From positions 2,249,001 to 2,313,000 of the forward strand of contig NZ_CP104002.1 in the NCBI RefSeq assembly GCF_029201565.1: a stretch of 64,000 nt of DNA, given 5' to 3'. Shown here in pieces: positions 14,430 through 15,762 of this stretch. The first letter of the stretch is position 1. Each line of letters opens with the position of its first letter. The notes below the pieces were generated by a model. That model was not told where the DNA came from. It did not search any database and was given only the letters and a program-made list of their open reading frames with translations. The translations under genes and the position numbers were made by a program. The DNA is from Devosia sp. SD17-2. GTDB taxonomy: Bacteria > Pseudomonadota > Alphaproteobacteria > Rhizobiales > Devosiaceae.

Positions 14430-14452
14430 ATTGCCCGGCTTGTCCGGGCAAT
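14430..14452. repeat. REP-like palindrome, intact copy beside the IS110 insertion
   Basis: ATTGCCCGG at 14430-14438 pairs with CCGGGCAAT at 14444-14452 over CTTGT. It is the intact neighbour of a second palindrome of the same design, 25 bases away, which the IS110 element has split. Paired short palindromes of this kind are frequent between genes in Hyphomicrobiales. Confidence 0.72.
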
Positions 14453-14477: not shown

Positions 14478-14491
14478 ACCACCCGGACAAG
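14478..14491. repeat. Left half of the REP-like palindrome split by IS110
   Basis: ACCACCCGG at 14478-14486 followed by ACAAG. The matching arm CCGGGTGGT lies at 15633-15641, on the far side of the IS element. Joining the two gives ACCACCCGG-ACAAG-CCGGGTGGT, a perfect 9-bp stem with a 5-base loop. Confidence 0.78.
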
Positions 14492-14503
14492 CAACCGTGG
14501 ACA

Positions 14504-15445
14504 TCACTGTTGGAATGCCGGTTCCTGTCGGGCGATGGCGTTGAGGATTGTGATGAGTTTTCTCACCGTTGCGATCATGGCGAGTTTGAAGGGTTTTCCG
14601 CGCAGGCGCAGTCTTTGATAGAAGTCGCCGAGAACGGGGTCTTTCACCTTGATGGCGCTGAGCACGGCCATGTAGGCGATATCGCGCAGATGTTTTCGTC
14701 CGCCAAGACAGCGGCCGTTGCGATCCGATGCGCCCGATTGGCGGGCATAAGGGGCAACGCCGATGAGTGCTGCGGCCACCTTGGCGGAGACCTTGCCGAG
14801 CTCGGGCATGTCGGCCAGTAAGGCGATCGCCAGAACCGGACCGACGCCGGTCACCTGCCGCAGCCGCGCCTGGCGCTGCTGGAGCTGGCGATTGTCGGCG
14901 AGAAGGGCAGTGATGGCCGCTTCGATGCGTTTGATCTCCAGGGCGATGGCCGCCAGACGCTCCTCGATCAGGCTGCGCACAAGCGGCTCGTCGATGGTAT
15001 CGAGCTGACTGACAAGGCCGCTCTTTTCCGCAACGATCCGCCGCCGATGGGCTGTGAACGCGCTCAGCCTTTGTCGGATCGGATCAGACACATAAGGGGT
15101 CAAGCTGGCGCGCACGGCCTGCAGATAACGCGCGATCAGAGCGGCATCGATCTTGTCGGTTTTGGCCAATTGGCCGATACCCCGCGCGTAACTGCGGATC
15201 CGCGCCGGGGCTAGAACATGCACTTCAAGGCCAGCGGCATGCAGGCTCTCGGCCACGCGGGCTTCATAGCCTCCCGAGGCTTCGAGCCCGATGGCCAACG
15301 GCCCCAGTCTGGCCAGGCGCTGCGTCAGCTCGGCGAGCGCCTCCGGTCCAGTGCTGCAACGCCAGGATTTGCCAGCGGGATGGGTATGAACGTCCAGATG
15401 CGTCTTGGAAACGTCGATGCCAACGAAGAGGGTGTCGTGTATCAT
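14504..15445 (-). CDS. IS110-family transposase (bridge-RNA recombinase)
   Basis: A 313-residue DEDD recombinase. The RuvC-like domain shows Asp11 in VGIDVSKTHLDV, Glu55 in LEASGGYE and Asp97/Asp100 in KTDKIDAAL, close to the positions known for IS621. The C-terminal Transposase_20 domain has the helix-hairpin-helix VTGVGPVLAIALLADMPELG and the nucleophile Ser237 in YARQSGAS. A coiled region (about residues 140-195) links the two. In IS110 elements this enzyme cuts and rejoins a circular element and target using a non-coding bridge RNA made from the left end, found here directly upstream. The frame is complete and there is no sign of decay. Confidence 0.96.
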   Translation of the reverse strand: MIHDTLFVGIDVSKTHLDVHTHPAGKSWRCSTGPEALAELTQRLARLGPLAIGLEASGGYEARVAESLHAAGLEVHVLAPARIRSYARGIGQLAKTDKIDAALIARYLQAVRASLTPYVSDPIRQRLSAFTAHRRRIVAEKSGLVSQLDTIDEPLVRSLIEERLAAIALEIKRIEAAITALLADNRQLQQRQARLRQVTGVGPVLAIALLADMPELGKVSAKVAAALIGVAPYARQSGASDRNGRCLGGRKHLRDIAYMAVLSAIKVKDPVLGDFYQRLRLRGKPFKLAMIATVRKLITILNAIARQEPAFQQ

Positions 15446-15610
15446 GACCTTGCTCCCAGGCTTGTGGTGCGGGCAACAGCCCGATCAACCGTTCGGGGTC
15501 AAAGGGAGCAGACAGGGCCTTGCTCGTCCTCGGCTGTGACAAACCAGCCGGACAAAACGGCCTCCTGACTGCATCAGCCGGGATGCGCAACCCGGCTGAT
15601 GCCACCACTA
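15446..15610 (-). ncRNA. Candidate IS110 bridge RNA
   Basis: Read leftward, the non-coding left end begins with a perfect 11-bp stem-loop (CATCAGCCGGG at 15572-15582 with CCCGGCTGATG at 15591-15601). It then gives a target loop and a donor loop. Target guides: CCGGCT (complement of 15546-15551) equals the left target plus core CT, and GGACGAG (complement of 15523-15529) pairs with the right target CTTGTCC with one G-T. Donor guides: ACGGTTG (complement of 15486-15492) equals the element's right end, and CACAAGC (complement of 15460-15466) pairs with its left end GCTTGTG. The donor loop is closed by TGCTCCC/GGGAGCA (15504-15510, 15451-15457). Exact RNA ends are inferred. Confidence 0.78.
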
Positions 15611-15705
15611 AAGCACAGATCCTCCACACAAGCCGGGTGGTGACGGCAGACTGTCGTCGGATGGCATACCCGCAGTGCCGGTTGTGGGCCACCGCACCTT
15701 CCCCA

Positions 15706-15755
15706 TACTCGATATGTCCCCTCGTCCCTCAGGGGAGAGGGTTAGGGTGAGGGGG
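15706..15755. repeat. GC-rich REP-like element
   Basis: Contains CCCCTCGTCCCTCAGGGGAG followed by AGGGTTAGGGTGAGGGGG, a form common as dispersed intergenic repeats in Rhizobiales. The short stem TCCCC/GGGGA is visible. It lies just past the stop of the leftward CobW-like gene and may act as a transcript end. Confidence 0.55.
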
Positions 15756-15762
15756 CCCAGAC

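Follow-up and report, generated by a model that had tools for sequence, protein, structure and literature searches.

A probable bridge RNA-guided IS110-group insertion sequence residing in REP-like palindromes of Devosia sp. SD17-2

The 64,000-nt stretch of the Devosia sp. SD17-2 genome analyzed here (the window) carries an IS110-group insertion sequence (IS) that is very probably active, or was until recently, and that moves by bridge RNA-guided recombination (Table 1). The case is built on the ends of the element, the matches between its guides and DNA, the sites taken by all copies examined, the corresponding sites found empty in a second strain, guides and flanks that vary together among relatives, an RNA fold that is conserved, and the homology of the recombinase. 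By analogy with IS621, from which the circle, promoter, RNA production, RNA-protein complex, and strand chemistry are taken, the element would excise as a circle, and the joining of its ends would form a promoter spanning the CT core, driving an RNA from 15602 to 15446. The 313-aa DEDD/serine recombinase would bind this RNA, the second loop of which would pair with the joined ends (ACGGTTG-CT-TGTG) and the first with a palindrome (TTGCCCGG-CT-YGTCC) resembling repetitive extragenic palindromic (REP) sequences. The recombinase would exchange strands at CT, inserting the element in one orientation. The original prediction had read the locus from its letters as a bridge RNA system with guides, a CT core, and a REP target, and our comparisons support that reading.

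Table 1. Observed and predicted features of the element and its flanks, in window coordinates
Feature	Position	Strand	Basis
IS110-group element, complete, 1141 bp including one CT core	14492..15632	-	Equal-length copies and empty sites
Left CT core	15631..15632	-	In-genome copies and second-strain empty sites
Right CT core	14490..14491	-	In-genome copies and second-strain empty sites
Left half of target palindrome (CACCACCCGG)	15633..15642	-	Sequence, copies; the empty intact site is L207 in the second strain
Right half of target palindrome (TGTCCGGGTG)	14480..14489	-	Sequence, copies, second-strain empty sites
Second target palindrome CCCGGCTTGTCCGGG, unoccupied, inverted relative to the occupied one	14434..14448	+	Intact in second strain
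IS110 transposase/recombinase, 313 aa	14504..15445	-	PF01548, PF02371, NF033542, PDB matches
Bridge RNA gene, predicted; extends to the base before ATG	15446..15602	-	Covariance model, pair counts
5' stem-loop, 12 bp	15571..15602	-	Fold; Novosphingobium copy keeps the stem via an A-U to G-C change
Target-binding loop module	15510..15570	-	Covariance model, pair counts; 15510 may pair here or extend the donor-loop stem
Left target guide (LTG) UUGUCCGGCU, 10 nt, last two pair with core	15546..15555	-	Junction pairing
Right target guide (RTG) GGACGAG	15523..15529	-	Junction pairing
Donor-binding loop module, apical stem CGGGC/GCCCG	15452..15509	-	Fold, pair counts
Left donor guide (LDG) ACGGUUG, equal to right end of element	15486..15492	-	Sequence, shuffles
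Right donor guide (RDG) CACAAGC, pairs with GCTTGTG at left end	15460..15466	-	Sequence, shuffles
GGGAG, 3' strand of donor-loop stem and likely ribosome-binding site, 7 nt before ATG	15453..15457	-	Sequence, fold
Candidate -10 box TTTAGT	15607..15612	-	Resemblance only

The transposase matched PF01548 and PF02371 and scored above the cut-off of NF033542 ("IS110 family RNA-guided transposase"). Searching the PDB returned two distinct sequences at E 0.001, namely ISCro4 (9t56, E 9.3e-24) and IS621 (8wt6, phmmer E 1.2e-21). Residues D11, E55, D97, D100, and S237 aligned with the active-site residues of IS621, the roles of which follow the relevant passages of PMC11208158; by our own count, the PDB chain numbering is offset by 2. 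The protein thus combines a DEDD RuvC-like domain with a Tnp domain bearing a conserved serine.

The ends of the element were fixed by 14 equal-length full copies in differing flanks, together with empty sites in a second strain. The left end (187 nt including CT) and the right end (12 nt) follow the IS110-type arrangement, in which the longer noncoding end lies upstream of the recombinase. The original prediction had given this left end as 188 nt at 15446 to 15633; the element proved to span 14492 to 15632 (1141 bp). Membership of the IS1111 group does not fit. Elements of that group, as sections of PMC11208160 describe them, carry the RNA at the right end and have subterminal inverted repeats 7-17 bp long, whereas the RNA here is in the left end and the inverted repeat measures 5 bp. 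This repeat, TCCAC/GTGGA, was seen by eye at the circle junction (14497-14501 and 15623-15627) and is longer than the 2-3 bp that the same sections report for the IS110 group. Also by eye, the related element of genome G024 has one pair altered at both of its bases (C-G to G-C) and lacks the innermost pair, and one pair is broken in Novosphingobium.

In its own genome (G000, one contig of 4.23 Mb), at least 15 copies were present when 40 of 101 first-look candidates were scored, 14 of them full length and differing at one base only, and one internally deleted. All 15 copies found were inserted in one orientation in the same REP-like palindrome, whose two halves flank them as CCCGGCT (left) and CT[T/C]GTC[C/T]GGG (right). 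The exact palindrome, CCCGGCTYGTCYGGG, was intact at 14 further places; hence, counting the copies found, 15 of 29 exact sites were occupied. At the DNA level, 397 genomes sampled from the order, a sample that may miss some relatives, gave no further close copy, the best match outside the own genome being a 62-base stretch. Two features of the surroundings are recorded here. The occupied palindrome and that at 14434-14448 form an inverted pair approximately 30 bp apart, resembling a BIME unit, and both are intact in the second strain. A second dispersed repeat adjoins the element (15701-15757) and matches many places in that strain.

We scrutinized this second strain (G497, a draft genome labeled as the same species) for empty sites, mapping the 300 bp on either side of every one of the 15 copies onto 28 stretches that contain all 33 of its intact palindromes. 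For copies 01-07, 09, 10, 11, and 14 (11 of 15), both flanks mapped to one intact palindrome with an overlap of 2-3 nt. The other four sites (copies 08, 12, 13, and 15) were occupied in both strains, each with at least one junction at a contig end inside the element, and only the right junction was found for copy 12. With 40 of 194 candidates scored, G497 had at least nine right and at least eight left junctions, and all 17 found lay in the palindrome family. Seventeen of its contig ends break 34-54 bases inside the element, so the lack of any protein match in G497 is an effect of assembly. The empty counterparts of copies 06, 11, and 14 have CTC, whereas the inserted copies show CTT at the left junction and CTC at the right. 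As the C of CTC is kept by the right flank only, the exchange lies to the left of that base. The G preceding CT is likewise common to donor and target, so the exchange is located within GCT, which fits the CT core. The flank overlaps and the CTC sites therefore bear out the prediction of a CT core common to donor and target, and the in-genome copies and empty sites do the same for the REP-like palindrome as target. At shared site 08, G000 (L008) has CTT and G497 (L256) has CTC in the right flank, which may reflect a point change, or an independent insertion or exchange at the same REP. At another inverted pair of REPs, G497 appears to hold the element in the partner REP and in the opposite orientation relative to copy 04 of G000.

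The two-strain comparison bears on two other accounts of these copies. REPs are themselves repeats that could recombine, and the 15 copies might owe their spread to duplicated chromosomal segments or to REPs undergoing homologous recombination; this is already contradicted by flanks that differ beyond the REP at every copy and by the 11 of 15 empty palindromes with contiguous flanks in G497, and its probability is practically nil. It is extremely unlikely that the element is a dead relic with guides kept by common descent only. Although one of the 15 copies is internally deleted, the 14 full ones are identical except at a single base, the reading frame is uninterrupted, the residues of the active site are retained, and two strains of the same species differ in where the element is inserted.

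The four guides were found where the original prediction had placed them on the minus strand (LTG CCGGCT, 15551-15546; RTG, 15529-15523; LDG, 15492-15486; RDG, 15466-15460), and their order and polarity are those described for IS621. The loop guides match both the target and the element's own ends. Two details of the prediction needed adjusting: CCGGCT is a correct match but too short, the LTG pairing over 10 positions including wobbles, and the 5' stem, given as a perfect 11 bp, has 12 (15602-15591 with 15582-15571). The 7-bp stem said to close the donor loop can form (UGCUCCC/GGGAGCA). When the 157-nt RNA was shuffled 20,000 times with its dinucleotides preserved, the LTG, RTG, LDG, and RDG motifs turned up singly 1365, 459, 194, and 332 times, respectively; at least two occurred together in 65 shuffles, and three or more of the four in none. 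The 157-nt RNA folded more stably than its shuffles (z -3.0, 1 of 200 as good), as did the exact 188 nt that the original prediction had proposed for folding (z -2.4, 4 of 200 as good). In the minimum-energy fold of the single sequence, the LTG is paired with the RTG side of the loop and the target loop is closed on itself, and the open-loop form accordingly rests on comparison. In the window, no match to an Rfam family attained the gathering score, and a permissive scan gave three weak unrelated matches. We considered the 5' stem-loop, whose CCGGCT and CAGCCGG are complementary to the LTG, as a possible target mimic. This idea was rejected because those letters are retained in the stem-loops of Shinella and Devosia limi, in which targets and guides read CGGGCT.

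To compare the predicted RNA among relatives, we used a covariance model of the two loop modules, leaving aside the 5' stem-loop, built from four sequences (the window, L061, L062, and L175) with a structure drawn from their folds. It was searched over 92 of 264 loci, those left out being mostly own-genome copies, repeated loci, and stretches retrieved for other purposes. At E <=0.1, 38 of the 92 loci matched, including three of the training sequences, and 54 did not. Inspection by eye placed 37 of the 38 matches in sense orientation just upstream of a transposase gene, with L091 on the other strand. Across 34 distinct rows, pairing holds in 94.9% of cells, and both sides have changed in 24 of 25 pairs; shuffles averaged 66.5% and 18.5, with 0 of 500 as high, and slid controls reached at most 54.3% and 15. 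These pair counts lean toward structure, as the alignment was fitted to the model. The covariance check favors the predicted RNA fold, with compensatory changes in relatives and matches upstream of transposase genes. Together, fold, model, and the pair counts of the two modules point to an RNA with a 5' stem-loop, a target loop, and a donor loop.

Joint variation of guides and flanks was scored in a blind test, in which element ends were called from the donor guides and CT alone and the target guides were then scored against the flanks. From the 38 matches and the window, four rows with incomplete model matches and two with missing ends were dropped, leaving 33, and removal of identical guides left 30. 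The RTG matched its own right flank over a mean run beyond the core of 3.50, compared with 1.28 when permuted (0 of 20,000, n = 30), and the result was similar without the four closest (3.46 vs. 1.21, 0 of 20,000, n = 26). For the LTG, with its register free within five positions, the mean run was 3.28 vs. 1.70 (0 of 20,000, n = 30), rising to 4.36 vs. 1.92 in the 14 rows with a clear left end (0 of 20,000). RTG runs of 1.5 or less occurred in 8 of the 30 rows (0 in L105, L057, and L043; 1 in L114 and L136; 1.5 in L061, L084, and L044), and for Shinella (L061) the right end was plainly miscalled by the rule of the test.

The closest copies allow the same comparison base by base. By protein identity, these are Shinella (L061, 76%), Novosphingobium (L062, 63%), and G024 (46%), together with a D. 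limi copy at 93% over 104 residues (81-82% at the DNA level). At position -3, guide and target both carry C in the window and G in Shinella, Novosphingobium, and D. limi; at -1, both carry A in Novosphingobium; and at +4, the guide A of the window faces T, and the guide U of its relatives faces A. Such joint changes were seen in Shinella, Novosphingobium, D. limi, and a further Devosia. Exceptions were an A in the Shinella RTG facing a target C at +2 and, in the G024 LTG, an A that replaces the G at -1 and another that replaces the second core base. In the three closest (Shinella, Novosphingobium, and D. limi), the donor guides and element ends were unchanged. Related copies with other flanks and unchanged guides, the pattern that the original prediction named as counting against it, were sought, and the target guides of relatives were found to change to match, with a few mismatches. 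Two related copies in G024 (L182 and L186) point the same way, lie approximately 1.8 kb from each other, and show an odd right flank (CTTGACCCGTCACC), which suggests a tandem insertion.

Within the species, we examined guide pairing at 47 junctions, with position 0 as the core C and the LTG counted from -8 to the core; position -9 was mismatched in 22 of 23 and so lies outside the guide. Seven of the 47 come from the four shared sites and are counted in both strains, and the total corresponds to about 20 sites if five left and five right junctions found only in G497 belong together, a pairing-up that mapping supports for L253 and L257 and that fits by palindrome for L250 and L259. Wobbles allowed, the LTG pairs at all 10 positions in 22 of 23 left junctions, the exception being a single mismatch at -3 in the G497 left junction L250, and the RTG pairs at all seven positions in 24 of 24 right junctions. 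At +2, the right junctions are evenly divided between T (12 of 24) and C (12 of 24), and the facing guide base is G. Overall, insertion sites differ from one another at 6 of the 17 paired target positions. The guide base is G or U at five of them (-8, -7, -6, +2, and +6), where both alleles pair, and the sixth (-3) is a true mismatch. A guide matching one allele would give G or U at all five positions approximately 1 time in 32, a post hoc count over positions that are not independent. We tentatively raise the idea, itself rather doubtful, that the target guides are wobble-degenerate, such that one RNA would serve the whole polymorphic REP family under selection for breadth over a dispersed intergenic repeat instead of for one sequence. 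Noncanonical guide pairs are described in part of the IS621 structure paper (PMC11208158), and a literature search found no paper joining "bridge RNA," IS110, guide, and wobble.

Given the guide matches, we also asked where the 11-mer CCGGCTYGTCC stands unoccupied. It does so at 37 places: 14 exact palindromes, 2 REP variants, and 21 elsewhere. By a codon-position score of our own, 20 of the 21 non-REP 11-mers look coding (>3), and 14 REP-type sites examined (12 exact and 2 variants) scored <=2.42. From sequence, intergenic REPs look like tolerated sites. The palindromic structure itself may be required for insertion, as the 21 non-REP 11-mers are all empty, but 20 of them look coding. A related account holds that the REP is recognized by the recombinase protein or through a palindrome hairpin and that the RNA-like matches are by-products, for example of a regulatory 5'-UTR. 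All occupied sites examined are indeed palindromic, the 21 guide-matching non-REP 11-mers are all unoccupied, one G497 site mismatches the guide yet reads as a palindrome, and ISPpu9, which also inserts into REPs, is described in the pertinent text of PMC8450116 as having a structured 5'-UTR that regulates tnp. Selection against gene disruption can, however, explain the emptiness of 11-mers of which 20 of 21 look coding, and guides follow flanks across relatives (0 of 20,000 permutations), including flanks that are nonpalindromic by eye (L069 and L081). Recognition by protein or hairpin is therefore very unlikely, and RNA guidance remains our reading of target choice.

A candidate -35 box, TTGCTT, is composed of the right-end TTG, CT, and the left-end T, with a spacer of 17 to the candidate -10 box TTTAGT, and would exist only on the excised circle; in the inserted element, it becomes CGGCTT. 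Similar boxes at the same spacing were present in five of five elements lined up by eye. Durrant et al. report a promoter across the circle junction in IS621, in a portion of PMC11208160. RNA folding and recombinase translation may exclude each other, since the last donor-loop stem contains GGGAG 7 nt before the ATG, a layout of stem and ATG that is the same in Shinella, Novosphingobium, and D. limi. In ISPpu9, structure in the 5'-UTR likely includes its ribosome-binding site, as stated in part of PMC8450116.

The element offers a compact (313 aa) alphaproteobacterial candidate bridge recombinase with a natural record of about 20 sites, two strains, and 11 empty counterparts. From sequence alone, this record bounds the exchange point and the mismatch tolerance of the guides, and it supplies targets for a functional test. 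It also suggests a safe genomic life for a guided element, which aims at an intergenic repeat while guide-matching 11-mers in apparent genes stay empty. Both IS110 bridge RNAs and REP insertion by IS110-family elements have been published, as portions of PMC11208160, PMC11208158, PMC11187229, and PMC1525189 attest, and no paper title combining Devosia with IS110 or with "repetitive extragenic palindromic" named this element in a title-level search. We regard it as a well-supported new example of the guide RNA mechanism described in 2024, with unusually clean natural evidence. The description "natural programmable recombinase system with an identified target" is ordinary for the family, because IS621 itself targets REPs.

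Comparison with known systems draws on portions of the papers cited. The element resembles IS621 of Escherichia coli in its recombinase family, active-site residues, CT core, and REP target (PMC11208160, PMC11208158), in a left-end RNA ordered as 5' stem-loop, target loop, and donor loop, and in the pairing of the 5' side of each loop with the bottom strand and the 3' side with the top strand (PMC11208160). The circle-junction promoter reported there is only a candidate here (PMC11208160). Unlike IS621, it has a distantly related protein, other guides, and another REP, and its RTG pairs over 7 nt rather than 4. ISEc21, an IS110-type element compared here by its published description, likewise has an RNA (seekRNA) from the region upstream of tnp, with a bottom-strand match before a top-strand match, and a relative naturally redirected to another target, but its abundant RNA is a 74-nt form (PMC11187229). 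In ISPa11, ISPpu9, ISPpu10, ISRm19, and ISRm22, all copies of an IS lie at one REP position (PMC1525189), as they do here. ISPa11 is of the IS1111 type (PMC11187229), and these REP-inserting ISs were described before guide RNAs were known.
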